From Crambe crambe (Eukaryota; Porifera; Demospongiae; Poecilosclerida; Crambeidae), in the NCBI GenBank assembly GCA_963924555.1, contig OZ004596.1, positions 4,784,139-4,848,138 on the forward strand: DNA of 64,000 nucleotides, given 5' to 3'. Position numbers and translations under genes: made by a program. Below the pieces are notes generated by a model that was not told where the DNA came from, ran no database searches, and saw nothing but the letters and a program-made list of their open reading frames with translations. This document shows positions 8,905 through 36,177 of the stretch, one piece after another. Position 1 is the first letter of the stretch; the number at the start of each line of letters is the position of its first letter.

Positions 8905-10745
8905 GTAAGTAATGAACTCCTCTTCTTCCCCTTTACCTAGAGTGGAATTTTATGTTAATAGCTATTTGCAGTACTGGCTGTGTGTCTCCCCACTATTGCA
9001 GAGCACCTAATGACTGCCCATGCATTGATTCACGCTATTCAGGACCCAACTGTGACACTCGTAAGTTAATCATAAGCTGTATGCACTGCTGGAAATTATG
9101 GGAGACTACTCAGCTAGCTATGCAGTCCGGGAATGTTATCGTGCACCAGTTTGTGTAGTTTTTTTGTGGGCCTATAGCCATTCTTAATGTATCTACACAT
9201 GCAGCTGTCTGCTCTAATTGCCCAAGTCCTCGAGTTTATCTTGCTCCTGAGACTTGTCAGTGTCTTCCTGGCTTCACTGGAGAATTTTGTAATGAAGGTA
9301 TAATTAGCTATAAAAGTGAGTGTTTGCCAATGCAATAAGAAGTTCAGTTTTTTTGTAGATATAGATGAGTGTTCAGATGTGGGAAATGAATGTGCTCAAA
9401 TCTGCAATAACGTGAGAGGATCTTTCTTCTGTTCATGTATCTCAGGGTATGCCTTGACTGATGACAGACTTGGCTGCAGAGGTAGCTATCTATTATATAA
9501 CTGTGGACCCTCAACCCTTTTAATACGAACTTTCATAAATCCGGTTATTTTAATGATATTCATGGCTATTTTTTGAGGTGCATTACACTGTAAAAACTAA
9601 TGGAACTAGACTGAAGTGCTCTATTTGAACTGTATGCATTCATTAATCTGAATCTTTCACTAATCTGAATGGGCTCTGACTTGTCCCAAGCTATTTGGAT
9701 TAGTAAGGCTCCACTGTATTATTCAAGTGAAAGATTAGCTATAGCTACTTACAACACATTTATAAGCTCTGTGCATATCATGCGTATTATTTCAACTTCA
9801 GTTTCTAGTTATATACTTGAGTATCAACTCTTAACTTCATTGCTGCTAGAATCTATAATGTAATGCAGTTACCACTCCCACTGCTGCTCCACTAATCTCT
9901 TCTGTCCATCGCATCAGTGCCACACAAGCCATAATGGAATGGAATGAGATACCTACATCCTCCAGAAATGGCATCATCACTGAGTATAGACTGTCGTACA
10001 GGAGTGCAGTCAATGGCAGCTGTGTGGTCAACCAATCAGGTTCAATCAGAATAGCACCAATCAACAACTCGGAGTCAAGAATGGCTCTGATAGACAGATT
10101 GGATCCCAGGATGGAGTACTGCATTCAAATAGCTGGTGCAACTCTTGATGGCATTGCTAGTTCCATGTAAGTAGTAGAATCACCTTGGCCCTAGAGAGCC
10201 TGCTAAGAGCTAGAACTAGACTATGGCATCCATAATATGCTTTGAAGTTTTGACCATAATGAGAACAGTGGAATGACCGGTTCTAAACTCATTTAGTGAC
10301 AACACTAGCCCAAGATACAACATAGGGCTGTTTTTATAGTGTCAAACTCCAATGGGTGGTGGCAAGCAACACACGTGCTAATAATAACTCCAAAATTACT
10401 ATAGCTATCAGGTAGTATATCACTAATACACACACTAAAAATAAAGAAAAAAGGTTAATTCTTACAGGTGATATGAGTCTTTTTACTCTTTAGAGATAAA
10501 AAGCATTGTAACTAGCTTGTCAGAGGAGTGCCCCCCTGTGCCCCCAATTCTAGAAAACTAGAAATCAATCAGCATACAGCTTTCTTTCTGACAGTTATAT
10601 CGCAAATCATAATTCTCAGATAAGTGCTTCCAATCCTCCTGATCAAGGATACATCCCTTTAGACGATGTGTCTAATTCCATCAGGTACAAGGAACTGAGT
10701 CCTCTAGATAAGCCCAGTGCCTATCAGGCTCTTATTCTATGCTAA
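8622..10745 (+). CDS. Gene F: EMI-EGF-FN3 protein with ITAM-like tail
   Basis: Exons join in frame: EMI 8622-8738 and 8804-8904, EGF 8962-9060 and 9205-9297, calcium-binding EGF 9359-9481, FN3 9869-10166, tail 10595-10745 ending TAA. Exon phases equal those of the N-termini of genes B and C, and the first EMI exon is 117 nt in both F and B. A signal-peptide exon must precede 8622 but is unresolved. The last exon carries YKEL and YQAL eight residues apart, a cytoplasmic signalling signature, yet no hydrophobic segment lies between FN3 and the tail. The protein may therefore be secreted, may have lost a TM exon, or may be anchored by a missed exon. It shares its promoter region with gene E. Confidence 0.7.
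8962..9481 (+). CDS. Gene F EGF domains 1-3
   Basis: Exon 8962-9060 (STGCVSPHYCRAPNDCPC core) and exon 9205-9297 (SNCPSPRVYLAPETCQCL) are non-calcium EGF modules. Exon 9359-9481 begins DIDECSDVGNECAQIC, a calcium-binding EGF with the DxDEC ligand motif. All are flanked by phase-1 introns. Confidence 0.8.
9869..10166 (+). CDS. Gene F fibronectin type III domain
   Basis: A 298-nt exon encodes an FN3-like beta sandwich: SATQAIMEWNEIPTSS, ITEYRLSYRSA and LIDRLDPRMEYCIQIAGAT. These match the conserved W, the YxLxY strand and the L..L.P...Y.I.V pattern. The phase-2 donor GTAAGT joins the tail exon in frame. Confidence 0.75.
10595..10745 (+). CDS. Gene F tail exon with ITAM-like motif
   Basis: Fifty codons after a CTGACAG acceptor. 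Tyrosines sit in GYIPLDD, YKEL and YQAL. The last two form YxxL-(8)-YxxL, matching the ITAM consensus YxxL/I-x(6-8)-YxxL/I. The stop is at 10743-10745. Confidence 0.6.
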
Positions 10746-11747: not shown

Positions 11748-14265
11748 TTAGGATATTTCAATGTACTCCTCTTCCTCATCCTCTTCCTCTACTTGAGTAG
11801 TAATAAACTGCACAGCTTGAATTATGTTCTTGTATTCACTCTCAGTCTGGGGAGATGGGTTTGAAGACTCTCCACTGCTTGCTGTCGTCGTAATAATAGG
11901 AGGGACAGTCGGAGTATGGAAATGCTTGATAAGATCCTCTGGGTCCTCGTAAATGTGTTCATTAGTATTGATAGTACCAGTCACCACATCTCCACATGAG
12001 TCTTGAATTATGTTATATTCACTCTCAGTCTGGGGAAATGGGTTTGAAGACTCTCCGTTGCTTGCTGTTGTCGTAATAATAGGAGGGACATCCTCCTCCA
12101 GTTTCTGCATTTCCACCATTTCAGAAGCAGGAGGCAGTGAAGGCTTGGGAGCAGACATCTCAAAGGAATATGGATTCGATTTGGAAGTCAAAATTGCAGG
12201 GGTGCACCTCGTCTGTTGACTTTTACTCGTGGATACATCAGACTTTATCTCTGGTTGCACGTTTGAGCTTGCAGCTGCTTCATTGCCACCAAACATGTCA
12301 TGAGGATTTGAGATGTTGGATGCAGTCGGAATATGGAAATGCTTGATATGATCCTCTGAGTCCTCATAAATGTGTTCATTGGCATTGATGGTACCAGTCA
12401 CCACATCTCCACATGAGTCTTGAATTATGTTATTATATTCACTCTCAGTCTGGGGAGATGACTCTCCATTGCTTGCTGTTGTCGTAATAATAGGAGGGAC
12501 ATCCTCCTCCAGTTTCTGCAATTCCACCATTTCAGCTGAAGTTTCAGAAGCAGGAGGCTCAAAGGAAACAGCTTGTTTGAAATCTGGATTTGATTTGGAA
12601 GTCAAAATTGCAGGGGTGCACCTCATCTGTCGACTTTTGCGCGTGGATAAATCAGACTTTGTCTGTGGATTCGAGCTTACAGCTGCTCCTTCATTGCCAC
12701 CAAACGTGTCATGAGGACTTGGGATCTTGGATGCAGTCGGAATATGGAAATGCTTAATAAGGTCCTCTGGGTCCTCGTAAATGTGTTCATTGGCATTGAT
12801 GGCACCAGTCATCACATCTCCACATGAGTCTTGAATTATGTTCTTATATTCACTCTCTGATTCTCCATTGCTTGCTGTTGTCGTAATAATAGGAGGGACC
12901 TCCAGTTTCTGCATTTCTACCATATCTCTCATTTCAGCTGAAGTTTCAGAAGCAGGAGGTTCAAAGGAAGCAGCTTGTTTGAAATCTGGATTTGATTTGG
13001 AAGTTAAAATTGCAGGGGTGCACCTCATCTGTTGACTTTTGCTCGTGGATACATCAGACTTTGTCTGTGGTTGCACATTTGAGCTTGCAGCTGCTTCATT
13101 GCCACCAAACATGTCATGAGGATTTGAGATGTTGGATGCAGTCGGAATATGGAAATGCTTAATAAGATCCTCTGAGTCCTCGTAAATGTGTTCATTGGCA
13201 TTGATGGTACCAGTCACCACATCTCCACATGAGTCTTGAATTATGTTATTATATTCACTCTCAGTCTGGGGAGATGACTCTCCATTGTTTGCTGTTGTCG
13301 TAATAATAGGAGGGACTTCCAGTTTCTGCATTTCCACCATTTCTCTCATTTCAGCTGAAGTTTCAGAAGCAGGAGGCTCAAAGGAAGCAGCTTGTTTGAA
13401 ATCTGGATTTGATTTGGAAGTCAAAATTGCAGGGGTGCACCTCATCTGTTGACTTTTGCGCGTGGATAAATCAGATTTTGTCTGTGGATTCGAGCTTACA
13501 GCTGCTCCTTCATTGCCACCAAACGTGTCATGAGGACTTGGGATCTTGGATGCAGTCGGAATATGGAAATGCTTAATAAGATCTTCTGGGTCCTTGTAAA
13601 TGTGTTCATTGGCATTGATGGCACCAGTCATCACATCTCCACATGAGTCTTGAATTACGTTCTTATATTCACTCTCTGACTCTCCATTGCTTGCTGTTGT
13701 CGTAATAATAGGAGGGACCTCCAGTTTCTGCATTTCTACCATATCTCCCATTTGAGCTGAAGTTTCAGAAGCAGGAGGCTCAAAGGAAGCAGCTTGTTTG
13801 AAATCTGGATTTGATTTGGAAGTTAAAATTGCAGGGGTGCACCTCATCTGTTGACTTTTGCGCATGGATAAATCAGGCTTTGTCTGTGGATTCGAGCTTA
13901 CAGCTGCTCCTTCATTGCCGCCAAACGTGTCATGAGGACTTGGGATCTTGGATGCAGTCGGAATATGGAAATGCTTAATAAGATCCTCCGGGTCCTCGTA
14001 AATGTGTTCATTGGTATTGATGGTACCAGTCACCACATCTCCACATGAGTCTTGAATTATGTTCTTATATTCACTCTCTGATTCTCCATTGCTCTGTGGA
14101 TGCACATTCGAGCTTACAGCTGCTCCTTCATTGCTACCAAATTTGTTGTGAGGACTTGGGATCTTGGATGTAGTCGGAATATGGGAATGTTGAATACGAT
14201 CCTCTGAGTCCTTGAAAATGTGTTTGGTACCAGCAACCATATCTCCACATGAGACCCTAACCTCT
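11748..14265 (-). CDS. Gene C cytoplasmic tail: tandem ~410-bp repeats with paired tyrosine motifs
   Basis: One 2.5-kb exon encodes 838 residues after the TM helix and ends EEYIEIS-stop. It contains six full repeats of about 135-140 residues plus a degenerate first and a partial last one. A repeat begins [14 protein letters not shown], continues [18 protein letters not shown], then a linker with [17 protein letters not shown] and [18 protein letters not shown] and YNNI fit the pYxN Grb2-SH2 consensus. One repeat reads YNII and lost it. In the degenerate first repeat Y is F (HIFKDSED). Repeats alternate between two subtypes. An acidic run lies near the C-terminus. Frames on the plus strand here are shadows. 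Confidence 0.85.
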
Positions 14266-17200
14266 CTGTGGGAACAAGAAATATTGGAATGAACACTAGT
14301 TGTACATATAGCTAATGCCACATGATGTAGCTGCTAACTCTAATTATGTATCACTATCAGATTTTGATTCTAAACAACAGTTTATAAGAAAGCCAGCTAC
14401 CTTTTCATTTTCCTGCAAACTACAGCCACTACGACAACTATGATGATGATGATGATGATGACGACACCTCCCACTGCACCTACATAAAGTGGTACTCCTC
14501 CCACTCGTGTCTCACATGGTGCTTCACTTTTGAGATATGTTGAACAAGGCAAGATATCCAGAAAAACTCCAGTGACATTTATTTTTGGGCTACTATCCAC
14601 CCATTGCTGTAAACGGGAGTGAAGTAGAGCTGCACTGGTGTTATCAAGTCCGATCAGATTGCCCCGGATTATGATGCTGTTTGTCCTTCTGTCCCCACAG
14701 GCCAGTTCACCATTTGCTATTAATTTCGACGAGAACAAACAGGAACATCTTAGTGTCAACTGAGAGGAAATGCGTTCTAGGACTGCATTGAGCTTCTCTG
14801 CACCATCATGGGTCTGCAATAATAATAACATGGTATGCATGCATGCAACAACATCAACTAGCCTTGCTATTACTCACCAGCCAAACTGTACAATTAATAC
14901 TTTCTCCGACAGACATATGAACCAGAAAGGAGCTGTTATTTACTGCACATAAGTTAACACTAATAAAAGTGCTAGAATTATCAATGGATGATGGAGTACT
15001 GATGTAGATATGGAAACAATGCACTACTTTGACAAAATCATCACTTGCAGTGATGACAGAAGTTATTCGTCCCATGTAGTATTATCAACATCAGTATGTG
15101 GCTACATATCTACCCTCATCACAGAGTCATGCATGCATGAAAGGGCTGAATTAGCCTAGCTAACTTACATGTCATTGGGTGGCATATTACTCCAGCATAC
15201 TGTCCATGTGCACAGGAGTCAGATCCTAGGCGAGGACAGTCTATGAGTCTCTCTTCATTTCCTGTGCATTGCAAGTTTTGGAGTGAGATAGGACTGGAGC
15301 TGGGAACTTGTCCAAAATAGATGAATGGTGTGACTATAAAGAAAGGTGATATCATTCAGTTACCTTTGTAATGCAGATAATAATTGCAGGGGCAATCAGA
15401 TTCCATGCCCATGCATGTATAGCTATGATGATCACATGAGCATTGGAATCAAATAATACAATGAGTCGATACGTTAGATTGGACAGCTGTAGCCAGGGAC
15501 GGAGCCAGCTCACTAGTGGTACGGCCATAGCTACCATCTGGGGAGTCTGAGGAAATCCCTCCAGTTATTATTGATTCAATTTCAATCTGGTATGATCTAG
15601 GCAATGCCATGTACTAACTTATAAGTCATTGCTATTATTCAAATTCCATACATACACACACAAAACAAAACAAAAAAAATGACTCTGAATGGTGGTACGG
15701 CCATGGCCATATCAGCCGTAGCAGTGCCTCCAGCCATGTGTACGTTTTTGGTTTGTCTTGCTAGATAGCTACGTATATACAGATGCTCTTTTATTGACGA
15801 ATGATACTTTTTCAGCATGTTACATTCATGCAAGATCACACAAAAAGTGGAAATATCAAAAGGCTTGACAGTGTAGTGCAAGAGGCTATCAATGTAAATG
15901 ACAGGCAAATTAAATATTTTGGACAGTAACATTAAAGTGCATAATAAGTGCTCTTTATAATACGTTGGGTGCATGATTCCATGCTGCCCCCGACCAACAT
16001 TTGCTTCCTACACCTATGTAGCTAATGTATGGTATCAAACATAGTTTCACAAGAAGAACTGAAACATCAAACAATGGCTGATGAAATGTAATCTTGAGGG
16101 AGGAGAGCGTGGAGGGTGAGTATCTAGGCTCTAAAGAGTGACTGGAGTGTTTGGAGAACATCATCTGATCAGAATAGATAGCTAGCTAAACTACGTATTA
16201 AACTGAAGCTTAGCTCTGGCTCTCTAGCTCTAGTTACATGTGCTGTTCTTTGGTTTGTATCAAGATCACACTTTATGTAACAGTGCGAATATTAAATTTG
16301 ATTTCCTTTAAGGATCACACCTGTGATAATGCATGTGTCATTTTAAAGATGTCAAAATAGACTGTTAAGCTAGCTGTGAGTGTCAGGTATAGGCAACTAG
16401 GTGTCATGCAGGCTGTAGTGCACATACATAGTGATAGTGCTATCTGACAGGTTTACTGTTTAAAAAGGAGTATGTATGAATATGGACCACTCTACTTCTA
16501 AACTCCTTCCACCACCAATGCACTAGCTTCTTCGGCATCTCTATTGCTGTTACAAAGATGGATATGTGCTTTCTGTATTGTATGTGTGTATGTGTATGAG
16601 TTACTCTTATTGTATTCAATATACATGTACCTAGTCCTGTCGCTGAGATGCCCAGCTGACGGCAGGCCACTTGTGCATCAGACAAATTCCATAGAGAGTC
16701 GCCACAGACAGTTCCCCACACCTCATTCTGGCATACTTCCACCCTCCCTTCAAATGTCACACGATTGGATGGGCTATTCAGTTGGATATCTCCATCCATA
16801 CACAACACTTCTAGAGAATATAATTATAAGGATCAACAAATCTTAAAGTGAAGTCTTATGCACACTTCTGTTCAAAATAGTTCTAACCCAGCTCCTTTAA
16901 GTAGAATGTCAATGTACTTTGATGTTTTCCCATAATAATATGTATTACATCTGACTCCAGCATCTTCAGAGTGGCTGCAGTCTGTAGATGATGATGCAAT
17001 ACATACTGGTGAGCTATGGGTAGAATCCCTGATCACCCTCCCCAATCAAATTTTCCAGACCCCCTCCTTAATTCATACAACAATTCAAAATTTAGGTGTT
17101 TCTTTATTCGATTTCTGGGATAGACACTGGAGAAAATTAAAATTTCCAGGAATATTATCCCAGCCAATCCAGGAGAGTTGGCAATTATGAGCTATACTAT

Positions 17201-17495
17201 TCTTATAAAAGTGGTAAATCCTTCCTGCTTTGACAGTAAGCGACAGGAACATCTATTAGGTGCCATGCATGAACCTCCATTTCTGCACGATGGATTGCAG
17301 ACATGAGTGGAGAGGTTAAGCTTTAGATTTGGCAGTGAGTCGGACACTATTTACAGAGCAGTATAATATGTGATACAGGAGAAATAACACTCCAAATTCA
17401 CTTCTACACGAAATCTATGTATAAATAATATGGGACTCACTGCTGGACCATGTTGTATCCACTCTCCTATAGCTAGTTAATGTAATAATCAGCAG

Positions 17496-17546
<51 letters not shown>

Positions 17547-20500
17547 AACACTCATCAATATCTTTTAAATTTTTTTAAAAAATCAATAGCTTAAAACTGC
17601 GACTTTGTTTTAGCTAAAACTTACTTGTGCAATTTCGTCCACCATTGCTTGATCTGTATCCAGTCTGACAGCTGCAAGTGTAAGATCCATTAGTATTAGT
17701 GCAGATCTGAGCACACTGGTGAGTCCCTAAGCACTCATTGACATCTATGCAAAATATAGAAAGACAATCTGAAGTAATTGACATGTTAAAGAAGGCGGGT
17801 GTAGCTGACCTAGAAGTCCCTCTTACCATCACAATGTCTTCCACCTCTATAGCCAGGTCTGCAGCTGCACGAGTAAGATCCAAGAGTGTCATGACAAACT
17901 TGAGCACATTGGTGAATCCCTTCAGAACACTCATCGATATCTTTTTAAAAATCAATAGCTTAAAACTGCGACTTTGTTTCAGCTAAAACTTACTTGTGCA
18001 ATTTCGTCCACCATTGCTTGATCTGTATCCAGTCCGACAGCTGCAAATGTAAGATCCATTAGTATTAGTGCAGATCTGAGCACACTGGTGAGTCCCTAAG
18101 CACTCATTGACATCTATACAAAATATAGAAAGACAATCTGAAGTAATTGACATGTTAAAGAAGGCGGGTGTAGCTGACCTAGAAGTCCCTCTTACCATCA
18201 CAATGTCTTCCACCTCTATAGCCAGGTCTGCAGCTGCACGAATAAGATCCAAGAGTGTCATGACAAACTTGAGCACATTGGTGAATCCCTTCAGAACACT
18301 CATCGATATCTTTTTAAAAATCAATAGCTTAAAACTGCGACTTTGTTTCAGCTAAAACTTACTTGTGCAATTTCGTCCACCATTGCTTGATCTGTATCCA
18401 GTCCAACAGCTGCAAGTGTAAGATCCATTAGTATTAGTGCAGATCTGAGCACACTGGTGAGTCCCTAAGCACTCATTGACATCTATGCAAAATATAGAAA
18501 GACAATCTGAAGTAATTGACATGTTAAAGAAGGCGGGTGTAGCTGACCTAGAAGTCCCTCTTACCATCACAATGTCTTCCACCTCTATAGCCAGGTCTGC
18601 AGCTGCACGAATAAGATCCAAGAGTGTCATGACAAACTTGAGCACATTGGTGAATCCCTTCAGAACACTCATCGATATCTTTTTAAAAATCAATAGCTTA
18701 AAACTGCGACTTTGTTTCAGCTAAAACTTACTTGTGCAATTTCGTCCACCATTGCTTGATCTGTATCCAGTCCAACAGCTGCAAGTGTAAGATCCATTAG
18801 TATTAGTGCAGTTCTGAGCACACTGGTGAGTCCCTAAGCACTCATCAACATCTATGCAAAATACAGAGAGACATCTAATACAATTTGAAGTCATTTAGCT
18901 ACAAGTTAAAGAAAGCAGGTGTAGCCAACCTAAAAGTCCCTCTTACCATCACAATCTCCATTGTCTCTATTGAGATCATAGCCATATCTGCAGCTGCACG
19001 AGTAAGATCCAGGAGTGTCATGACAATTTTGAGGACATTGGTGAGTCCTTTCAGAACACTCATTGATGTCTTTAAAACAATTTTTTTAATCAATATGCAA
19101 CTTTGTTTTAGAACTTACTTGTGCAATTTCGTCCATCATTGCTTGATCTGTATCCAGTCTGACAGCTGCAAGTGTATGATCCAACAGTATTAGTGCAGTT
19201 CTGAGCACACTGGTGTGTACTCTCCGAGCATTCATCAATATCTAAGTTGAAAGCAATATGATGATGCTGATGTAAGCTTGAAGGTCTACTAAGTTGACCA
19301 CAAACAATATAAGTTAAGAAAGGGAGGGGGTGGGGGTAGTGGACCCATATATGAACCCACCTACACATCTGGTTCCCACAAGTCGATATCCTGCATTACA
19401 TGTACAGGTGAAGCTGCCTTGTGTGTCTCTACACCTGCTATTAGTAGTATCACAGTTATGACCGCCAGTCACACACTCATCTATATCTATGGAATGAACA
19501 TAAGCTATATGCTATGTTTTTGTAAATGGCCAATCCTTACTGGTTTCGCAGTGACTTCCAGTCCATCCTGGGTGACATGAACATGCATTAGGTGCTCTGC
19601 ACGAACCTCCATTTCTGCACAATGGACTGCAGACAGCTGTAAAATCAGAACTTGATAATGCAATTACAATTATGTAATGTGTGAGTGGAGAGGTTAAATT
19701 TAATTACTATGGCTATAACAGCTGCATACAGTCGAACCGCACATGTACATTTTGAGGCGAATTTATTTGCAACTGGAAGTAGATTAAAGTGGGTGTGGTT
19801 ACAAAAATGGCTCGACTAGGTACCAGCTCTGCAGTCTCAAGACATTCCCTTTAACTGAGGTAGGGCTCATGAAACATGATGGTTTGGCCTAACTATAATA
19901 GCTATTCCCTCCTTGCTATTATTTCTCTCTTTCTGATCAGTGGTGTATTCAAGATGAACAGGAGAGGTGCATTATCAAGATCTCATGTTGTGAAATAAGT
20001 ATAATACACAGTGACATAGCTACTTACAGCTAGTGATGCTAGCACAGTAAGATTTCATATTGTATTAACAAGGGGGTATAGAGTTTGGAGAATGATAAGT
20101 TAGTAGTCAACATTTTAATTTATAGCTTTTATGGTTTATATCACCTATAGCTATAGTTACAACAATAATACATAGCTAGTTATGATCTCTTAAGAAAGCT
20201 AGTCTCCACTTCAGTACGTTGCATTTCTTTTGGAGACCAGTTGCTCTTGAGTGTCTTGGTTCTATAATTCCTTTTTAATGTGTCTGGACTAGATGCAGCT
20301 GAGATGACTAGGCCAATTGCTATTGTTCACAATGGCAGGACCAAGCATTAAACATGACTGTGGTAGTGTACAGTAATATGCAAACCTGCAAACCTAACTA
20401 GCTATGTTGATGGCCAAGTAACAGTAATGCATGCTCTAGCTACATACCTGTCAGAGAGAAAACTATAACTAATGTGCAGCGCCGCCGCAAGGAAACATCC

Positions 20501-20807
20501 TGGTTCCAGCCCTGGAAATTTGTGATGACCTTTGACCCCCCATTGGGAAACATTCCTCCCTAGGGTTAGGAAACACGCAACCCAGGGAAACAGAAATCAC
20601 TGCCAACACTGGTTACACTGTAAAAATAAATGTGTAAAAACAACCCATTTTTAGGTTATCTGAGTTGCAATTTGCAACTCAGATAACCTAAAAATGGGTT
20701 GTTTTTACACATTAGTTTTTACAGTGTTAGTTGTGCACCAATTCATGGGTTGTTAATGCACCAGGGTCTCATGACTTTATTGAAGGGTCTCATGACTTTA
20801 TTGAAGG

Positions 20808-20891
<84 letters not shown>

Positions 20892-23800
20892 TGATCAATA
20901 TAAGCCTAAGGGCTCATAGCTAGCTACATATAATTATAAAACAAGAACTATATATATTGTTGCTTTATTAGAGTTTACAACTATTATGCCCCAGTTAGCC
21001 CACTAGTACCAGGGGTGGCTGAGGACCCCAAAAAGTGGGGGAGCTCAAAATTGCGCATCGATGACTACTCCCGATGAGCTGTAATGATATTCATGATGGT
21101 TTTGATTCTATACATGTTGTGGCCAAATAACAATGCAGTCACTAATGTGCAACATCATTAGTGACTAGACAGTAGACTTTACTGCTGCAGTTAGTCAATT
21201 ATATAATGGGTCAAAAAGTGGGGGGGGGGGGGGGGGGGGGGGTGCTAAAAAGTGGGGGCTCTAGCCTCTCTTGCCCCCACCCTCAGCTGCCACTGAGTAC
21301 AGATCAGCCTCCTTCAGCATGAAAAATTTGCACCTTTTTCTTAGGGCTATATAGTTTGTCACCCTTTTCAAAGTGCTGGCATATGCATGCGTGAATGGGC
21401 TAGCATGCATGGGGTCACTAATTTTACAGGGAGGAACCCTGATTTTACGATAATTTTGGGGTCAGGGGTCCCCAAATTTATGGGGTCCCTAAATTTACGT
21501 GACACCGGGTACAGGAAAATCGGGAATAACGCGGCACTAAATTTTTTTTTGATTTGTTGATATCCGTTATCTGGCTCTCCATCGTGCAAATTTCAAAGCT
21601 TCAGGTCCTTTGATGCCCGAGGAACAGCTCTTAATAAACTCCAGGTAGCGTCCAAGCAACGTGAACATCATTTCCGGCCACGCCCGTGCACCATCAAATT
21701 GAAGTGGGCAGAACCTCGAACTAGAGTTAGAGAGAAGCTAGTTTCTCGCCTCCTGACACTAGTAAGTACTAACTAAAGCCTAGAAAAGAGTAACAAGGTG
21801 GGCTATTTCAAACGGCGGGGCTATTCCGTTGGTTCAAATATTTCTGAAACTACTGAGATTTCTGAGCTCAATGTTGGAGGATATAATCTACCATAGTAGA
21901 ATATATCTTTCAAAATAGTGCTCGTAAGCTCGTAGAGTTTTGAAAATATTTGACCCTACGGAATAGCCCCGCTGTTCGAAATAGCCCCGCTTTACCTTAT
22001 CGAAGGTAGCTTAGTTACTTCCAAGCATATAAGCTGGAAAGCCTATACTTAGTTCTGGTGATTTTCAGCTGCTGAATTTTCCGTGCATGAACGTTTCATG
22101 CCTGACTAGCTAAATTTAGTGCTTCATTCGAAGCTTTTCTACTTTAGTCTAAGGTCCAAAACTTGGTCAGAAGTTTGTTCAGGGATCATCGTTTTGATCT
22201 ACAGTAGAACCTCGATTATCCGAACACCTTTGTCCTCAAGAATTTATTTTGTGTACGGTTAAGTGAAATAGTCCAGATAAGTGAAATGCAATTATAATGG
22301 GTGGGATATAAAATTTGTGGGTGTGGCAATCACACGTGGCATTTCTACAGCTGCTGCTGACTACGATGGCAAGCTCAGATCCAAAAGAAGTCTTCGCTAT
22401 AGAAAGTGTAATTCGGGGGCACCATGTTTACAAATATGTTTGGACGCCATTTGAAGGTGAAAAGCTGGTCCTACGTAGAGCGAGAACATCATAACAGCTA
22501 TGATTGATGATATGATTGTAGGCCGTGTTCCCAGAGTTTCAAAATTTCCACTTTCTCCTTGATAGACAAGACAAATCCCTTCCGCTTTGGTTTAGCAGCT
22601 GATGCCATGCCTTTAAATCTAACTATTAAACACTCCAGCTGTGCTCCTACACGCATTGGCAGTGCCTGCGCATACGTGCAGCTGCACGCATACTAGTACT
22701 GCGCGCGTGCGCGTATGGCAGCATGCTCTAATTAAGCGAATTATATCTGACCACGTGGGTCATTTTCAAATCCGGATAATCGAGGTTCCGGTTAATCGAG
22801 GTTCGGATAATCGAGGTTCTACTGTACCTATACAGAAAAAAATTTTTGTTGAATAAATGGCATGACTCACTAAAACTGCTCCTACGTAGAAAATTGTTCT
22901 GCAGCGTTATGCCCGATTTTCCTGTACCGGGTTAGTCTCGCGAGCCAGCCTGAATATTCCATTTTTCTTCCTTTCCCCCTCCCCCTTTTCGCGCATGAAA
23001 AATACGGCTGGCTCGCGAGACTAGTACCGGGTCACATATGATGATGCTGATGTAAGCTTGAAGGTCTACTAAGTTGACTATAAACAATATAAGTTAGAAA
23101 GGGAGGGCCATATATGAACCCACCTACACATCTGGTTCCCATAAGTTGATATCCTGCATTACATGTGCAGGTAAAGCTGCCTTGTGTATCTCTACACCTG
23201 CCATTAGTAGTATCACAGTTATGACTGCCATTCATACACTCGTCTATATCTATGGAATGAACATAAGTTATATGCTATGTTTTTGTAAATGGCCAATCCT
23301 TACTGGTTTCGCAGTGACTTCCAGTCCATCCTGGGCGACATGAACATGCATTAGGTGCTCTGCACGAACCTCCATTTCTGCATGATGGACTACAGACAGC
23401 TGTAAAATCAGAACTTGATAATGCAATTACAATTATGTAATGTGTGAGTGGAGAGGTTAAATTTACTATGGCTATAACAGCAGGGATTGATATAGGATTT
23501 TTTTGCTTGGAAGGGGAAATTGCAATTGTATGGACGATGTGTATTCTGAGAGTCAAATGTGTGTTGGAGCATAGTATGCAGTGTGCATGCCGTAGTATGA
23601 TACATATTGAAGGCCCTGAACTTACTAAGTGAAATTTTAGACATTTTAATGAAAATAGACACATTGCATAAATTTGGTAGTGGTGGGGGTTTTCTTTTTT
23701 TCTTTTTTTTGGGGGGGGGGGGGGGGGGGGGGGGGGGGAGACACTCTTAGCCTCGTCCCCAGGCTCTAATTTTGCGGAGGTGGACAAAAGAGCCTGGTAC

Positions 23801-24986
23801 CCACTGTTTGCGCATGCGCCAATTTTTCCCCCAAATTGGGGGAAATCGTAATCTCTCAGTAATCTTTCGTGATACATGATGCAATACTGCTGAATCAGCA
23901 CTGCAGCAGACTACCTCTAGTTCTTCGCGGACAGTGTGTTTGTTTTACGCCCTATCTCGGCTGGGACAATCCCACCTAGTACTGAACAAGGAGCAGCAGC
24001 AAGCAATTCTCTCCGTTCGTTTATTCGTTGGGGAATATTGCAGAGCTGAGGCTGTGATCATCTCCTCCGGATTTAAGGGAGAGCGGCTTATGGATAAAGA
24101 AATTCTTGCCACTATAAATAGTTTTAGAAGTGCCAGTCTTGTCTTCTCTTCTCCAGAGAATTTAGCTTTCTTGGTACCTCATAGCGCATGCTCATACACA
24201 TAGTTACATGTTGTGACATCACACACCGTCATAAAGTGTAATAGGCGGTAATTTCACGTGAAATTTTTTGCACATGCGCAAACAGTGGGTACCAGGCTCT
24301 ATTTTCCGCCTCCGCACAATTTTAGAGCCTGGGTACGAGGCTAGGGACACTCTAGGTTTGAGAGGGGAAATCCCAGTTTTCACGACCTCTGTATCAATCC
24401 CTGAACAGCTGTATAGGTCAATTGGCAGTGAGTCGGACACTATCTTACAGTGCTCCATGGCACTTAATAGATATAGAGGGGAAATAACACCCCAATGCAC
24501 AAAATCTGTATGTGTATAAATAATATGGGACTCACTGCTGTATCTGGACCAATGAGTATAGCTAGTGCTCTACTCCATCTTGGAAACAGCTATAGTTTAA
24601 TACTTACGTTGGCATGACCTGCCAGAGTACCCAGGGCAACACTTGTAAGATGTTCTGTAAGATGTCCTAGTTCTTGATTGAGACACAGTTCTTTATAACC
24701 ACAAAATAAATATAAAAAGACTAGCATGACTGCAATATGTTTTACCTGCTGCATCTACCCCACCCCCAGAGGCCACAACCATGATACTGGGTGTGATAAG
24801 ACCGATAGTAGATGAGGTAGCTCATCCGATGACTGCAATTTCTACATGTACGGGAAAAAAGTTTACTCCAAAAAAGCAAACTGGCTGTAGCTATCCAAAT
24901 ACTTACTGCGCGCTGCTATAATTGACCCAGGTTAAGACCACAACAACTGCAAAAAGCGTCAGAAACACAGCGTTCTTAGTCTCCAT
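11748..24986 (-). CDS. Gene C: EMI-EGF-SRCR transmembrane receptor with a repetitive 838-residue cytoplasmic tail
   Basis: Minus-strand order: signal peptide 24907-24986; EMI 24746-24832 and 24608-24690; EGF 23304-23399; cbEGF 23124-23249; a second copy of this pair at 19541-19636 and 19361-19486; cbEGF 19119-19241 and about 18945-19075; a tandem array of paired EGF exons 17625-18851; SRCR 16631-16810 and 15169-15333; membrane-proximal exon 14878-14942; TM exon 14401-14813; tail 11748-14265. Phases agree at every junction checked. Unlike B and D it has SRCR instead of FN3. Truncated exon remnants at 16940-17560 (an SRCR half, an EGF, a DIDECS stub) show internal rearrangement but need not break splicing. 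Likely a surface receptor; ligand unknown. Confidence 0.7.
14401..14942 (-). CDS. Gene C membrane-proximal module and transmembrane helix
   Basis: Small exon 14878-14942 ([17 protein letters not shown], ending TVWL) is followed by exon 14401-14813. That exon carries [39 protein letters not shown] and LDILPCSTY, then a transmembrane stretch of about 25 residues of V, I and A ending in VVCRKMKR. The same module occurs in B, D and B'. It looks like a SEA-type or related membrane-proximal fold common in sponge receptors; that assignment is an inference. Confidence 0.75.
15169..16810 (-). CDS. Gene C SRCR domain (two exons)
   Basis: Exon 16631-16810 encodes [20 protein letters not shown] and [10 protein letters not shown]. 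Exon 15169-15333 encodes [20 protein letters not shown] and [11 protein letters not shown]. Joined in phase 1 they form one SRCR domain. The 1.3-kb intron 15334-16630 holds a small repeat element at about 15493-15736. Confidence 0.8.
15493..15736. mobile_element. Small non-autonomous repeat element, copy 1
   Basis: About 240 bp, starting near CAGGGACGGAGCCAGC and ending near GTAGCAGTGCCTCCAG, with CA/A-rich interior. A second copy lies at about 37390-37632, where the gene B homologue lacks it. Confidence 0.65.
16811..17624. other. Gene C intron with truncated exon remnants
   Basis: On the minus strand, 16941-16999 encodes [14 protein letters not shown], the end of an SRCR half without acceptor or donor. 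17237-17306 encodes an EGF start ([17 protein letters not shown]) that loses the motif after the sixth residue block. 17544-17560 encodes a DIDECS stub running into a CA/TG microsatellite (17498-17543). These are fragments of duplicated exons. Confidence 0.65.
17625..19241 (-). CDS. Gene C EGF array with 369-bp two-exon tandem repeats
   Basis: Each 369-bp unit holds a 120-nt exon ([15 protein letters not shown] ... [10 protein letters not shown]) and a 114-nt exon ([16 protein letters not shown] ... RGGRHCDG). Units start at 17625, 17994 and 18363 and are almost identical, introns included. The 120-nt exon recurs at 18732, followed by divergent relatives at about 18945-19075 and 19119-19241. 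The first copy has an extra CTT-like difference only at its flank. The DxD/NEC and C.N....Y.C.C patterns indicate calcium binding and Asn/Asp hydroxylation sites. Confidence 0.8.
19361..19636 (-). CDS. Gene C EGF + calcium-binding EGF pair, duplicated copy
   Basis: Exons 19541-19636 and 19361-19486 closely match the pair at 23124-23399, including the intervening intron. Replacements include ACSCHPGW for ACSCRPGW and YRLVGTRC for YQLMGTRC. Splice sites are intact in both copies, so the mature protein may carry the pair twice. Confidence 0.7.
20616..20726. mobile_element. Palindromic MITE with TTA duplication (PIF/Harbinger-like)
   Basis: A 111-bp near-perfect palindrome with ends CACTGTAAAAA and TTTTTACAGTG, flanked by TTA at 20613-20615 and 20727-20729. 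A 3-bp TWA duplication is typical of PIF/Harbinger elements. Confidence 0.75.
20811..20884. repeat. CT dinucleotide microsatellite
   Basis: About 37 uninterrupted CT units preceded by a short direct repeat (GGGTCTCATGACTTTATTGA, twice). It makes spurious Leu/Ser-repeat reading frames. Confidence 0.95.
21501..22932. mobile_element. Non-autonomous TIR element with nested insertions
   Basis: The ends GGGTACAGGAAAATCGGG (left) and its near reverse complement at about 22909-22932 (CCCGATTTTCCTGTACC) are inverted. Inside are a 200-bp inverted-repeat element (21795-21998, ends around GGGCTATTTCAAACGG) and a Tigger-type element (22202-22824). No coding capacity was recognised. Confidence 0.6.
22202..22824. 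mobile_element. Non-autonomous Tigger/pogo-type element
   Basis: Ends CAGTAGAACCTCGATTATCC and its inverse at the right, flanked by TA at 22200-22201 and 22825-22826. These are the usual terminal sequence and TA duplication of Tigger-like elements. The interior (623 bp in all) has no intact transposase. Confidence 0.8.
22933..23024. mobile_element. 92-bp hAT-type MITE
   Basis: Ends TAGTCTCGCGAGCCAGCC and GGCTGGCTCGCGAGACTA, flanked by the 8-bp direct repeat TACCGGGT at 22925-22932 and 23025-23032. An 8-bp duplication is typical of hAT elements. Confidence 0.8.
23124..23399 (-). CDS. Gene C EGF + calcium-binding EGF pair, proximal copy
   Basis: Exon 23304-23399 reads [18 protein letters not shown] then [10 protein letters not shown], an EGF-like module resembling MEGF/Draper EGFs. 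Exon 23124-23249 reads [12 protein letters not shown], then [18 protein letters not shown], a calcium-binding EGF. The surrounding block (about 23037-23485) is duplicated at 19257-19723. Confidence 0.8.
23748..24345. mobile_element. 598-bp hAT-type non-autonomous element in a gene C intron
   Basis: Ends TAGCCTCGTCCCCAGGCTCT and AGAGCCTGGGTACGAGGCTA, flanked by GACACTCT at 23740-23747 and 24346-24353. A 28-base G tract (23711-23738) abuts it. An 89-codon plus-strand frame inside (23934-24203) is not recognised. Confidence 0.75.
24608..24986 (-). CDS. Gene C signal peptide and EMI domain
   Basis: Exon 24907-24986 encodes a start with [20 protein letters not shown] followed by SSAQ, a clear secretion signal. 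Exons 24746-24832 and 24608-24690 add [20 protein letters not shown] and [18 protein letters not shown], an EMI domain ending in the diagnostic CCPGY. Phase 2 at the first two junctions is identical to gene B. The start codon lies only 21 bp from the boundary of a transposon insertion at 25008. Confidence 0.85.
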
Positions 24987-25962: not shown

Positions 25963-27939
25963 TAGGGTAGAGTAACCACGTCCTGGACAGACTAATTAGT
26001 GGCCAGTCAGCGGCACTTTATTATCACGTGGCAATCTTGAGGCGCCATGTACACCTGTTCATTTTGGCGCCAATTTGCCCAGGTACGTATATAGCTAGCT
26101 AGCTGCTCTAAAGATCACGGTACTGTTGACTGTTAGCACCCGTTAGCTGCCCGGACAGCGCTACTTTCTTGAAGGTAGGTCTGGTAAACTTTTAAGTACC
26201 TAGGCCTGTGATTAGGGTCTCGGTATATTTTAACCACCTGTTAAACGAAGAACACAAAGTTGAACTTGGACATATTTAGTACCAACTTGGAGCCAATTTT
26301 ATCCTCTATCAGAACAGTCATAAATTTCTAGGTAACTATGATTTTAATTGGTGTTATAGCAACTTTTTCTGGCATAGTATTGTTCCCAAATACTGGACAA
26401 AATATTTTCATGTTATGTACGTAGGTAACTTGCTGTTTCTTGTGATGGCTGCCAAGCCTAGGCATAAATGGTCACAAGAGGACCTGGAAGCTGCTCTTGA
26501 TGCGGTAAATGAAAATTTGTAACTGAGGGAAGCTGCCGGCAGATATGGTATTCCGAAGAGTACCATCTCAACTTATCTTACGGGGAAATCTGTTATTGGT
26601 AAAAAGCCTGGTCCTGCAACAATTCTGACACCAGGAGAGGAGAAAAAGCTACTTGACTATGCCCTTCACATGAGCGAAATAGGATATGGCCGGACAAAAG
26701 ACCAATTGCTTGAAATGGTGTAAAAACTTATGAAGGCTGGTAATCGCCCTAATAATGACAAGCCAGGAAAGTGGTGGCGGCTCTTTAAAAATCGACATCC
26801 CGAGATTTCCTTAAGAAAACCGGAGCATTTGCAGTTATCCAGAGCTAAGTGCTGTACACCACATATCATTTCTGTTTGGTTTAAAGATTTTGAACAATTT
26901 TTGTTGTCCCATAATTTGATGAACAAAAGTGATAGAATATGGAATGCTGATGAGTCGGGGTTCCCTCTGTGTCCGAACACTGGCCGTAGCCATGAAAAAT
27001 TCCACCACTGTCTATGGTGTGACTGGAAATACTAGAGAGCAAGTAACCTGCCTATGTGCTGTGAGTGCCTCAGGTCGGGCTATACCACCAATGGAAATAT
27101 TTGCCGGTGAATAATTGTGTTGAAGGAGCATTTTTTGGATGTTCATCCAATGGGTGGATAAGCACTGAATTATTTTATGGTTGGGTAGCAAGTAAAAGAG
27201 TTCCAGCTCGACCAGTTGTTCTGTTGTTAGATGGAAATTCATCGCATATTAACCTGGAATTGTCTAAATTTTGCCGAGACAACTCCATTCTTCTCTATTG
27301 TTTTCCAGCTCATGCTTCCCATATCCTCCAACCCCTGGATATAAGTTTCTTTAAACCTTTAAAGGCATCATGGGGTAAGGCATGTGACAATTACTGTGTT
27401 CGATATCCTGGTACACATGTTACCAAACACTTTTTCGAGAGGCGTGGATGTCTACTGTTAGGATGTCAGTCATTGTTAACGGATTCAGTGAAACTGGTAT
27501 TTGTCCATTTAACCCTCAAGCTGTTCCAACATTAAACTAGCCCCTTCATTACTTTATAGAAAAGCAACTCCACTACCTAAAGTGTTGTCATCTGAGCTGA
27601 GATTCAGTTGTAATTTTGTGGTTTTGTGGGGGGTTGTGGTTTTGAGGTTAACTCTTTTCTTGTGTCTTGAGACTGACATTATTGCAATTGTGACATTATC
27701 TTGTCTTTTTTGACCATTAAAGTTAATGTACGAAAATTTGTCCATTAATTGGAAATGGGGGTGGCTATATAAAAATTGGTGTCACTGTCCACCAATTGGT
27801 TCAAAACTAGTTTTTCCCCAAAAAATTATTACTTATATAGTTAGTTGATTTCATCATTCGTAAATAGTGGAGTAGGCTTAAACTACTTCATATCTATACA
27901 GGTTTGTTTCTTAAGTGTCCAGGATAATACTCTACCCTA
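25963..27939 (+). mobile_element. Tigger/pogo-type DNA transposon nested in the MULE terminal repeat
   Basis: Ends TAGGGTAGAG and CTCTACCCTA are inverted, with flanking TA at 25961-25962 and 27940-27941. The element interrupts the left inverted repeat of the MULE, as shown by comparison with the intact right repeat. It carries a decayed transposase. Confidence 0.8.
26445..27540 (+). pseudogene. Tigger/pogo-family transposase, decayed
   Basis: From the ATG at 26445 the N-terminus reads AAKPRHKWSQEDLEAALDAV, then a helix-turn-helix with LREAAGRYGIPKSTISTYL. Stop codons interrupt at about 26520 and 26721, and the frame shifts near 26980 and again near 27110. The catalytic triad is visible: D in NADESGF (about 26950), D in LLLDGNSSH (about 27230) and D in LQPLDISFF (about 27338), the DDD arrangement of pogo/Tigger enzymes. 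It cannot make an active protein as it stands. Confidence 0.85.
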
Positions 27940-27989
27940 TAGATCCGGCAATCCAAATGCGCATGCGCAAGCACATGAGAACTGTCAGC

Positions 27990-28740
27990 AACACTCCTGA
28001 AGCTTCCACAATGGTATTCAAACACCCCAGCGTGCATAGCAGCTGGACAGAGATCTGCCAGAGCACTGTGCCTCACAAGGAAATTGAACTTCCTTCAGAA
28101 AATCTCAGCAAAAGACACCAATGAGGCTGTGAGTGCCCAGACTTTAGCATCACTCTCAGACGACATCAACTCTACCTGCCTAGTTCGGGAATGTAGGGAC
28201 CTGGAGCACTACTTTGGAACAGATTTCACATCAGCTATCCTTCAAGAAGGAACTGATCCCTGTCCCCACCCACGCAAAATTAAGGAGGACATAAGCTCAA
28301 AGGATCGTGACCTGCTGTTAGCCAAGCATAAAGGAAGGGCTGACATGTCCATCGTGGTGGAGGTGGAGAGTGAAATTGGATGGCCACGATTATGGGACCT
28401 CGCACTAGACAATGGTGCCAGGTGCATCAAAGGGCTGAGGAATCTCTTACGGGTGATTACATTCCCACCCCATGCCATGCATGCTTGCCCCGTATGTGAG
28501 AGAGATGACATCTGCAGAGACTCCCTGCTCAGCCACGTCCTCAACACTCGCACCAACTGCCACCTTAGCAGCAAAGAACTCCTCCAAGAGCTCTCATCCG
28601 TCACAGATGCTGACTCGGTCTTCTTCGGCCAGTTGTGTCACTTGGCTAAACTGTTTCAAACTTGAACCCTGTATCTCCTGTATTTCTTATTTTGTTATGC
28701 CCACTTGGGTCTTTGTAATGAACTTTGACTTTGACTTTGA
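27990..28740 (+). mobile_element. Probable 5'-truncated LINE 3' end
   Basis: An open frame 28084-28665 (stop at its end) holds LVRECRDLEHYFGTDFTSA, LLAKHKGRADMSIVVEVE and a C-terminal CPVC...(H)...C cysteine cluster, as at the end of many LINE reverse-transcriptase proteins. A frameshift near 28084 separates it from an upstream piece. It is followed by a CTTTGA-type simple tail near 28722-28740. It sits between the MULE terminal repeat and the transposase. I cannot name the clade; host cargo is an alternative. Confidence 0.45.
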
Positions 28741-31221
28741 GAACTTTGAACCTTGAGCTAGAGGGAAACTTCGTTATGGAAGTTTGTAGTTTTTCTGTTG
28801 GTGAGAAGTTTGCGAGATTCGACGCATTAAAAGAGAATTTGCTACATATGAGAAGGACCGTAGTGTTCAGCTATATCGTAGTGACTCCAGGACTCTCGAA
28901 GCTGCCGGTAAAAGAGTTCTCCTCAGGGTAGAGAAAGCTAAAAAAGATCTCGTCTACTATTCTGTTACCTTTTCTTGTGTGTTTGGTGGAAAAAAATACA
29001 TCGACAAAAGAACTGGTAAAAGACCCGTTCAGAGGTATGAATATTTAGATGATGGTATAGCCATTTTGCTTTGAAAGGAAGGCTCTTTTGTATAGATCAT
29101 TAAAACAAGACTGCAAAGCTGCTATCAAGTTTTCATTGAGTGAGGATGGTCAGCATTTAGTAGTGTCTGGATTGAATGAGGAACACAATCATAATATTAC
29201 CACTGTAAGTTTTTGTAGTTCTGTAAAACTACGCTCTGACTGTAATGTGTTCATAAAGGCTATTTATCAACATCTTCCCCGTCAGCGAAAGTTGAATGCA
29301 GAAGATATAAGTAAGGCTGAAGTATTTATGAAAATGAAAGTGAATAAGAAGTTGTTGCAACATCTTAGCAAATGTACTGGGAAAATTATTACTCTAAAAG
29401 ATTTAAGCAATATTCAAACTGGGTTGAACAAATCCGATGACAACAGTTTGGAGAATGTTATTTCTATATTACAAAGAATTGAAGGTGATTTATTAGAGAA
29501 AATTTTAAAATTTTTATGATACTATTGTGATATAATAGGTTCAACAGTGGAAGTTTTTACCGATTCAGACAACACCCTCATGGGTATCATGTTTCAGGAT
29601 GGTATTATGAAAACAGTCTTTTCAGCTTACCCAGAACTGCTACTTGTAGATGCTACATATAAACTTAATGACCTACGGATGCCAGTTTATCTTCTGATGT
29701 CAATTGATGGAAATGGACAAGGAGAGATCATTTTAGTTTTCCTTACACAGCTTGAGACAGAGGCAGCGCTATCGAAAATGGTACAGGCATTTAAACTACA
29801 TAATCCTAAATGGAAGGAGACAAGGGTGATTATGAGTGATAAAGATTTTAATGAAAGAAGTGTATTCCGAAAAGAATTTCCAGATGCTGTTTTACACTTG
29901 TGCTTGTTTCATACTCTTCGATCTTTTCGCCGAGAGGTGACATGTGATAAACTTGGAATCAGGCCCGGTGAAAGGGATCATGCTTTGGAACTATTCACTA
30001 AATTGGTTTATTCAAAATCTGAGAATGAGTATGATGAAAATTATCAAGAACTTTTACAATCAGGTCTTTCAACTGTTATTTCCTACTATAATATCAACTG
30101 GCATCCAATTCGTCTTGAATGGGTTGAGTGTTTTAAAGGTGTAAACTTTTCACTTGGTGAAACTACAAATAATAGGCTGGAGAATATTAATGGAAAAATC
30201 AAAAGTGTTTGTAACAGGTACATAATGTATGATATTTAATAAACTATATAATTACATGTATTTATCATCCTATTAGGTATAATAGTCTTCTTAAATTTTT
30301 TGAGCAATTTTGTGCTGTGCTTTCTTCTCTTCGTAATGAGCGTGATCACAATACTCTCATGGCTATGATAAAAAAGAGAGTAGACTTGCAGGATCCAATT
30401 GTGATCGACTATTCATCAATTCTTACGCCTTATGCTTTGGGATTCGTATCACAACAATTAGTCCTCAGAAAGAAGATAAATGTTATTCAGGACTTTAGTG
30501 AAAAGAGTGTTTTGTTACCTTGTCCCAAGGCTTACTAAAAGTTAAAACTGAGAGTTGTCAATGCTCCTTTTGGAACACTATGCATTTACCTTGCCGACAT
30601 GTGTTTGCTGTCAGGGAAAGAAAAGGTCTCCCTTTGTTTATTGACAACATTATTGCTGATAGGTGGACTTTGGATCATATGAAATCTACCTACGATCAGA
30701 AAATACATGATTTGCATCCAGATTCCTTTCAGGTTTGTTGTTATAGTGCAGTCCCATAGTATAATTCCTAACCTAATTTCAGGTTGTCAGCATTGGTTCT
30801 GATCGTGCTAGAAGTGTGTTGTCTCAACATCAGAAATTTCATAAGGCTACTAAAGTTACCCAAAAACTTGCTTCCCTAGCTTCAGAGGGTGGCATGGACC
30901 AATTTAATGAGAGATTTGGACTTCTGAAGCGACTAAGGGATGAGTGGGCCAGTGGTGGAAGGGTCGTTCTTAGTTCCATTACCATATCAGGTGATAATGC
31001 ATTGCCAAGTGTTCAATGGTATCTTTGATACATATATACTGTTGTTTCTGATACACATTGGTCATTAATATTTATGAGATTTTCAGGCAACTATATAGTT
31101 ATAACTTCTGATTTTGGTGCTAAAGAAAGTTCTAGGCCCCCTCATTGCCTTCCTTATATGAACTTAAGAAACCCAATATTCTGTTATTGTGTGTATACTG
31201 TTACTGAATACTGACTCAATC

Positions 31222-34920: not shown

Positions 34921-36177
34921 TGATTGATAAGTTTATGTTTGATGATAGATAAACCCAACAAACACAGCACATGCGCACCACTTCTTTTCAGCAATGATAA
35001 TTAGCTACACAGCTATGAATTCTTTCCTGTTCATGTATTAGTTAGTGAGTGTGATTTCAATCTTCTTGCTGCTTGCCAAAGACTGGGCAGCTTAATTTAT
35101 GTCACCAGTAGACTCTTCGGATGAAGATGATGTGGGTGTTATAGATGAGGTACTGGATTCAGGATTTGACTGTTGATTGGATGAATGAATCTTCATAGTC
35201 TGTGCATTTGTGCTGGTGGTTTCACCTTCATTTTCACTAAACTTTACAGTATCATAATTAGGATTAGGCATGTTGAATACAGTTGGCACATCAACATAAC
35301 GTGGCTCCTTGAAGTCAGTCCCATCAATTTCAGTCTCTGCCAAGCTTGCCGGATTAGAAATCACATCATCATGGAATTTTAACCTCTCACTGGAAAACAA
35401 GAAATATTATATACATACTTAATAATCACTCCAAAAATAATACTATTTGTTAGCTATCTACCTGTATTTTTTGCTCTTCACTCTCTTCCTGCAGACTATT
35501 GCCAACACTATGATTATACTATGACAATGGCTATCAGAATCAAGACCCCCACCACTCCCAATCCAGCCTCGTATGATGAAGACACTCTTCCCCGATTGGC
35601 CAGATTCTGAGGTTCACTCATTTCACCAACTGATACAGTGGAAGTCTGAGGTTCAGTCACTTCACCAGTGGAAGAAGAAGGCTCACAGATTGTTTTGGTT
35701 TATGGGATATGTCGAGCAAGGCAAGATATCCAGAGGAATTCCAGTGACTTCTATACTTGGGCTACCATCTACCCATCGCTGCAAATGGAAATGAAGTAGG
35801 GCTGCACTGGTGTTGTCATCAAGTCCAATCAAACTGCCTCGGAGTATGACCCTGTCTGTCCTTCTGTCCTCACAGGTCAGTTCTCCATTTGCAATGATAA
35901 GAATGAACAGGAACATCTTTGTGCCAACTGAGAGGCTATGATTTCTAAGACTGTCCTGAGCTTCACTTCATCGCTATGGGTCTGCAAAAATAGTGGCATG
36001 GACGAAATATCTCCAGTTAAGTAGATGGATATTCATAGTCATAATTAAGATACTCACCAGCCAAGGTGTGCAGATAATTTTTCCTGTCATATGAACCAGA
36101 AAGGCACTGTTATCAAACACTGCATGCATAATAATTGTATCGATATAGTACATTTGAGTACAGTACATGCCATGCAT

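Follow-up and report, generated by a model that had tools for sequence, protein, structure and literature searches.

The minus strand of the window (the whole stretch of 64,000 nucleotides analysed here) contains a gene, designated C, whose last exon encodes a cytoplasmic tail of 838 residues. This tail probably arose by multiplication of an ancestral short tail, since each of its full repeat units is homologous to most of a short tail found in neighbouring paralogs. Judged from domain matches and splice phases, gene C probably encodes a single-pass receptor with an SRCR domain and upstream EGF and calcium-binding EGF domains. We prefer to explain its expanded disordered tail as a multivalent phosphotyrosine platform for Nck/Crk- and Grb2-like (or ITIM-like) partners, an explanation that we consider to have about even chances of being correct as a whole. 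The gene model comprises the following exons:

16631–16810, minus strand: SRCR domain, first half (Pfam SRCR 37.9 bits, cut-off 26.1; splice phase correct)
15169–15333, minus strand: SRCR domain, second half (Pfam SRCR 25.7 bits; in phase)
14878–14942, minus strand: start of the juxtamembrane extracellular domain (in phase, AG/GT borders)
14401–14813, minus strand: juxtamembrane domain and transmembrane (TM) segment (hydropathy, identity to paralogs)
11748–14265, minus strand: last exon, cytoplasmic tail of 838 residues (acceptor, open frame, in-phase chain)

These five exons are chained with AG/GT borders and their joined frame contains no stop codon except the terminal one. As a half domain the second SRCR exon scores slightly below the Pfam cut-off (25.7 vs. 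26.1 bits). The TM segment corresponds to a hydrophobic stretch at 14504–14400, and the structure model of the juxtamembrane domain has a mean pLDDT of 51. The tail exon is in phase with the TM exon ending at 14401; its acceptor on the minus strand reads ..ttgttcccacag| with exon base 14265 next. The boundaries proposed in the first-pass annotation (first base 14265, last base of the stop codon 11748, 838 amino acids) are thus exact to the base, and its assignment of this exon to a receptor tail is supported by the in-phase junctions of the SRCR, juxtamembrane, TM and tail exons. Among the 50 listed frames of at least 110 codons the longest open frame of the window is the one at 14333–11748 on the minus strand (861 codons). 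The coding frame is open throughout the tail exon, and the other two sense frames contain 34 and 65 stops.

Upstream of the SRCR exons EGF and EGF_CA exons extend on the minus strand from 19631 to 17656, with EGF at 19631, EGF_CA at 19487 and nine EGF_CA-pattern matches from 19242 to 17656; Pfam detects the partner domains EGF_CA, FXa_inhibition and cEGF on this same strand. We infer that these EGF-type exons and the SRCR exon belong to one gene. The set of domains points to an animal source, probably a demosponge. Within the EGF_CA region a 369-bp tandem array of 4.4 copies is located (17573–19215), so tandem duplication has expanded this region of gene C too. An isolated EGF and EGF_CA pair at 23394–23149 (minus strand) closely resembles the pair at 19631–19386 and may be either a duplicated fragment or an alternative beginning of the gene.

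In the tail itself TRF (score threshold 50) reveals a single array at 11906–14078 with a period of 402 bp, 5.3 copies, 88% matches and a score of 3121. Its units, in the order of translation, are:

14076–14264, minus strand: degenerate start unit with Phe (TTC) at the second tyrosine position and without its own starting SEYxN
13674–14075, minus strand: unit 1, 134 residues, YKNI and YEDP
13260–13673, minus strand: unit 2, 138 residues, YKNV and YKDP
12855–13259, minus strand: unit 3, 135 residues, YNNI and YEDS
12444–12854, minus strand: unit 4, 137 residues, YKNI and YEDP
12024–12443, minus strand: unit 5, 140 residues, YNNI and YEDS, with an altered patch containing an extra Tyr (NPYSF)
11841–12023, minus strand: unit 6, 61 residues, YNII (Asn at +2 lost) and YEDP
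11748–11840, minus strand: half unit 7, YKNI, acidic C-terminus with EEYIEIS, stop

The first-pass annotation had described six or more tandem repeats, one about every 135–140 residues. The tandem array is real, but it consists of five full units of 134, 138, 135, 137 and 140 residues, together with the degenerate start, the 61-residue sixth unit and the half seventh. All seven SEY-type unit starts lie in frame 0, and the unit lengths (402, 414, 405, 411, 420, 183 and 90 bases) are multiples of three. Full units share 84.5–97.5% DNA identity, units 2 and 4 being the closest (97.5%). This proximity, together with the alternation of K/N and P/S variants across units 2–5, suggests the duplication of a two-unit block. 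An AlphaFold2 prediction from the five-unit alignment (five similar rows and thus a poor basis for prediction) gave a mean pLDDT of 46, a pTM of 0.13 and no residue at or above 70; this low confidence fits a disordered unit.

The tail contains 15 tyrosines in its 838 residues and 13 of them occupy two register positions. At the first position (SEYxx[I/V]) tyrosine is found at all seven places, six of them with YxN and one, in unit 6, with YNII. The second position (HIY[E/K]D[P/S]) has tyrosine at six of seven places, in the context IYED five times and IYKD once (unit 2), and phenylalanine in the start unit; YxxP fits four of these six sites and the remaining two read YEDS. A pairing of YxN with IYED in every unit had been suggested previously. 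Both tyrosines are indeed present in six units, including unit 6 that has lost the middle of the repeat yet retains the pair, but the exact motif pairing holds in only four of the six (units 1, 3, 4 and 5). The SEY and IY tyrosines are separated by 23 residues in all but one of the six paired units; the remaining pair, shortened by the loss of a codon, is 22 residues apart. Out of register are only the tyrosines of NPYSF (unit 5) and of EEYIEIS at the C-terminus. The latter likewise lies 23 residues past the last SEY tyrosine, an offset that may be due to chance. The second tyrosine is encoded by TAC in five units and by TAT in unit 5, the first by TAT at six places and by TAC in half unit 7; hence all differences among the 13 register codons are synonymous.

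The residue at +1 of the YxN sites is Lys or Asn, which is unusual among known Grb2 sites. As the first-pass annotation had claimed, these sites match the Grb2 SH2 consensus pYxNx given in the available passages of PMC10968029. The second motif had been underrated there: YED[P/S] is a better match than YxN to an experimentally tested SH2 site, namely the Nck site Y96 of orthoreovirus p14, and HIYED[P/S] of gene C is similar to the Nck sites EHIpYDSV and HEpYEDP, tested according to the excerpts of PMC9333988. In 20000 shuffles of unit 4 YxN occurred in 10% of trials, an ITIM-like motif in 10% (this pattern additionally permitted Thr at −2), YxxP in 17%, Y[ED][ED][PSV] in 1.2% and NPx[FY] in 2.6%. 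The occurrence of most of these motifs in a single unit is thus weak evidence of function. Retention across copies is somewhat better evidence than presence in one unit; the copies are not independent since they arose by duplication. In addition units 1–4 contain NPDF, and the linker that closes unit 5 contains NPF (SSNPFPQTE); both lie within 12024–14075 on the minus strand and are taken to be a possible PTB-type and a possible EH-type endocytic motif, respectively.

The origin of the array can be addressed within the window, because it holds three further copies of the juxtamembrane–TM exon on the minus strand (40892–40368, 51894–51382 and a broken one at 35981–35461), all followed by tails of 99–140 residues that are unrepeated:

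40368–40892, minus strand: paralog juxtamembrane domain and TM segment
39969–40298, minus strand: paralog short tail, 110 residues, homologous to the gene C unit
51382–51894, minus strand: paralog juxtamembrane domain and TM segment
50900–51319, minus strand: paralog short tail, 140 residues
35095–35391, minus strand: short tail, 99 residues, of the third copy with broken juxtamembrane exon

In an alignment of the 40 and 51 kb copies with gene C (the broken 35 kb copy being left out) the juxtamembrane–TM exon of gene C shows 58% protein identity to both. By eye, the paralogous copies show the same kind of exon junction, and the tail exons of gene C and of all three copies begin in phase 2 (AG|A or AG|T, then GAG). 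The juxtamembrane–TM copy at 35 kb is split over two frames with stops and followed by the open short tail at 35391–35095; it is either a pseudogene or the product of an assembly error.

Homology between units and short tails is supported for all full units at the DNA level and unevenly at the protein level. With units cut at SCGD, none of 500 codon shuffles reached the alignment score in any of the 15 comparisons of five full units with three tails; the start unit aligned weakly (27, 2 and 114 of 500 shuffles). The fourth unit cut in this way and the 40 kb tail share 156 identities over 219 aligned bases; their alignment sets in slightly ahead of the second tyrosine and runs past ..FKQA... 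The splice acceptor of the gene C tail exon and the codons that follow it can also be aligned with the 35 kb copy (an alignment without shuffle control). At the protein level, with units cut at SEY, for the 40 and 35 kb tails 0–2 of 2000 shuffles reached the scores of units 1, 2 and 4, and 134–488 reached those of units 3 and 5 (not significant); for the 51 kb tail 8–68 reached those of the five units, an intermediate result; block shuffles of the same comparisons gave 0–2, 88–324 and 17–103. Comparison of the unit profile with the short-tail profile by hhalign yielded a probability of 74% and an E-value of 2.8e-5, with only columns 34–64 aligned. From the DNA and protein alignments it follows that a gene C unit copies most of an ancestral tail, and that the gene C exon is a true tail exon. 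Short of a transcript this homology is the strongest backing for the 14401/14265 junction.

The three short tails have one tyrosine in common, that of YD[TD][VL]KF. It aligns with histidine in gene C, both in the start unit and in each of the five full units, while unit 6 lacks that stretch; where one unit was aligned with each of the tails at the DNA level, gene C reads CAT and the short tails read TAT. No short-tail residue could be securely matched to the register tyrosines of gene C. Between the paralogs, therefore, the tyrosines of the tail have changed. This turnover speaks against the mere amplification of a docking site that already existed; it is compatible with tyrosines copied as passengers as well as with a newly formed pair amplified later. 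The Phe in the start unit, together with DFKEP in two short tails, suggested that tyrosine had replaced phenylalanine at the second position; this idea was not retained, since protein and DNA alignments disagree on the placement of that stretch.

Selection on the units appears to be purifying and weak to moderate. Among codon columns present in at least four units (synonymous site fraction 0.217) units 1–5 show 22 synonymous and 36 nonsynonymous classes (22/58), an excess of synonymous ones (P=0.004); with the divergent unit 5 omitted units 1–4 show 13 and 27 (13/40, P=0.077). Values of pN/pS between unit pairs range from 0.34 to 0.76, and by segment they amount to 0.47 from SEY to HIPT and 0.63 in the rest. 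These data bear on a neutral, length-driven origin, in which a disordered tail was multiplied by unequal crossing-over, with the tyrosines carried along as passengers. Local duplication is evidently common here, as the array in the EGF part illustrates, the constraint between units is mild, recent copies would be alike even without selection, and the gene C tyrosines are unlike those of the paralog tails. Nevertheless, unit lengths differ in multiples of three, the shortened unit 6 still holds both tyrosines, merely two tyrosines are out of register, and synonymous classes are in excess overall, though not clearly so without unit 5. On balance we regard this neutral origin as rather unlikely.

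An inhibitory tail would be a further reading, in which SEYxx[I/V] recruits a phosphatase of the SHP type and repeats raise the avidity. The ITIM consensus is [S/I/V/L]xYxx[I/V/L], and all seven SEY sites satisfy it, a fact overlooked in the first-pass annotation. Yxx[I/V] is kept at all seven places, one more than YxN, since unit 6 has lost the Asn only; this makes it a serious rival. Furthermore, the paralog short tails contain YDTV, YDDV and YDDL. However, an ITIM-like motif (with Thr permitted at −2) occurs in 10% of shuffles of unit 4, and the second tyrosine does not fit Yxx[I/L], so that we hold this reading to be quite improbable. An ITAM consists of two Yxx[I/L] separated by 6–12 residues. 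No such pair occurs within the units: their second tyrosine, in YED[P/S] or YKDP, follows the first at a distance of 22–23 residues. Least probable of all is an endocytic tail that recruits Dab/Numb-type PTB adaptors via NPDF (NPx[F/Y]) with the tyrosines being secondary: the motif occurs four times, once in each of units 1–4, is infrequent in shuffles and would suit uptake by a scavenger-type ectodomain, but units 5 and 6 lack it, as does the start unit, and its match to the PTB motif concerns the NPDF core.

Returning to the multi-adaptor platform, we consider the following course of events to be the most probable one. The tail exon, homologous to the short tails, would have grown by repeated in-frame duplication of roughly one tail length (134–140 residues). 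The disordered product would present six tyrosine pairs, 22–23 residues apart, and a seventh SEY site. Upon clustering of the receptor a kinase of the Src or Abl type might phosphorylate these tyrosines; pYED[P/S] would then dock SH2 adaptors of the Nck/Crk type, and pYxNI adaptors of the Grb2 type or an ITIM-type partner. Many adaptors per receptor molecule could lead, for example, to actin remodelling for uptake or adhesion. Binding of both adaptor types is here extrapolated from the resemblance to Nck sites, to the Grb2 consensus and to the pYxxP sites bound by crk; phosphorylation and output are presumed, as is the dose effect of repeat number that the first-pass annotation had proposed. 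In favour of this platform are the in-phase exons, the concentration of tyrosines in register, the two tyrosines kept by unit 6, the synonymous-only tyrosine codons, the excess of synonymous classes over units 1–5 and the low pLDDT. Against it stand the Phe of the start unit, the +2 Asn loss in unit 6, YKDP in unit 2, two second sites ending in Ser, the weak excess of synonymous classes without unit 5, the occurrence of three of five motif patterns in 10–17% of shuffles, the turnover of tyrosines between paralogs and the unusual Lys or Asn at +1.

A more specific proposal, which we consider unlikely, is that in this receptor family output strength depends on how many copies of the whole tail are present. 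One paralog would have amplified the ancestral tail five- to sixfold and exchanged the ancestral tyrosines for the new YxN/YED pair of fixed spacing, and its number of units would still be shifting. If this were true, unequal crossing-over could make individuals differ in receptor valency. The cluster offers natural material for comparison, namely homologous juxtamembrane–TM modules that carry the tail either once (40 and 51 kb) or about six times (gene C). Provided that the tail does signal, such material would allow direct tests of what valency, a spacing of about 20 residues and tyrosine turnover do. In any case the DNA of this gene cluster, probably from an early-branching animal, illustrates a plausible route to a multivalent tail.

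The statement of the first-pass annotation that no receptor with such a tail has been described was too strong as to kind, since choanoflagellate TM proteins with many cytosolic YxxP motifs have been published (PMC5043372); to the known kind belong these proteins, CD6, WC1 and LAT. Salpingoeca rosetta PTSG_05573 and others possess several cytosolic YxxP like gene C (four YxxP and two YEDS), and two phosphopeptides covering five of the ten YxxP motifs of PTSG_05573 bound the SH2 domain of choanoflagellate crk (PMC5043372). They differ in their ectodomains (DUF5011, thrombospondin repeats) and in having SH2-like domains in three of five cases, and the available passages of the same paper mention neither a 135-residue unit nor a second tyrosine of the YxN/Yxx[I/V] type, but do report an ancestor of crk from Amphimedon (PMC5043372). 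According to these passages BCAR1/p130Cas is likewise a multivalent YxxP platform for Crk-type SH2 adaptors with 15 motifs; it is an adaptor with SH3 and FAT-like domains and not a receptor, whereas in gene C YxxP fits merely four of six second sites. No Pfam match to SH3 or FAT-like domains was found in the tail or in the minus-strand region 14198–24000. CD6 is an SRCR receptor of the vertebrate T cell and is not known to have a repeated tail or EGF domains. Its long tail with nine tyrosines docks SLP76, TSAD, GADS, GRB2 and SHP1, as stated in the excerpts of PMC6305463; it is likened to gene C by description and not by alignment of tail sequences. The mammalian WC1 family comprises multigene SRCR receptors with short, long and very long tail forms, and in the passages at hand the longer tails are due to extra exons, in contrast with the tandem multiplication inside one exon seen in gene C (PMC3511184). 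The SRCR superfamily of the sponge Amphimedon counts 296 genes with EGF_CA, cEGF and FXa_inhibition, Pfam families also found here, as commonest partners; the word tyrosine does not occur in the main text of that paper, and its available passages are silent on tyrosine motifs and repeated tails (PMC10855680).

Among viral proteins the disordered tails of vaccinia A36 and orthoreovirus p14 pair Nck and Grb2 sites about 20 residues apart, Y96 of p14 being a Nck site, and LAT and nephrin with their multivalent phosphotyrosine tails form adaptor condensates, as far as the excerpts of PMC9333988 describe them. The viral tails contain a single pair in the order Nck–Grb2, unlike the close pair of gene C with YxN preceding YED, and the likeness concerns short motifs alone, homology not being claimed. 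Like LAT-type Grb2-docking tails gene C has multiple YxN sites (six of seven, binding being predicted). Among the literature matches listed, which lie outside preprints and most subscription journals, no title or abstract beginning describes a receptor tail that is a tandem multiple of an ancestral tail with two tyrosines at fixed spacing.

Database searches yielded no confirmed relative of the tail or the unit alignment among IMG/VR contigs, of the tail among GTDB genomes, or of the juxtamembrane alignment in either collection; as these are viral and prokaryotic, such results say little. PDB sequences were the only eukaryote-containing protein collection searched, so the absence of relatives means little there as well. 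Two PDB matches of the tail (E 0.44 and 1.3) were taken as chance, three MHC class I chains matched by the juxtamembrane profile in stretch 265–336 (E 0.013–0.045) as TM similarity, and five Pfam matches on the tail, all below their cut-offs, were rejected.

Some further features of the window deserve mention. An identical 33-bp tandem unit is found next to the 40 and 35 kb copies (41090–41453, 10.9 units, and 36173–36306, 4.1 units) and probably belongs to the duplicated block. A minus-strand fragment with stops at 38602–38510 resembles the juxtamembrane domain of gene C (THDGAEKLN..; weak match, E 0.029) and is perhaps the relic of a second gene of this type. Two long runs of exons with EGF_CA pattern (63942–41894, minus strand) lead to the juxtamembrane–TM exons at 51 and 40 kb and apparently represent very large tandem EGF receptors. 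Pfam, which covered the minus strand up to 43.4 kb and a minor part of the plus strand, detects FN3 near the 40 and 35 kb copies and no SRCR in that stretch; an FN3-like sequence was recognized by eye at 52484–52098. Open frames at 27065–30239 (plus strand) resemble, by eye, remnants of DDE-type and MULE-type transposases. Finally, a possible last exon of a plus-strand gene converging on gene C was seen by eye at about 10595–10745, with the tail-like tyrosine motifs GYIPLDDV, RYKEL and AYQAL; the same gene shows EGF_CA at 9358 and, by eye, an FN3-like stretch near 9859.
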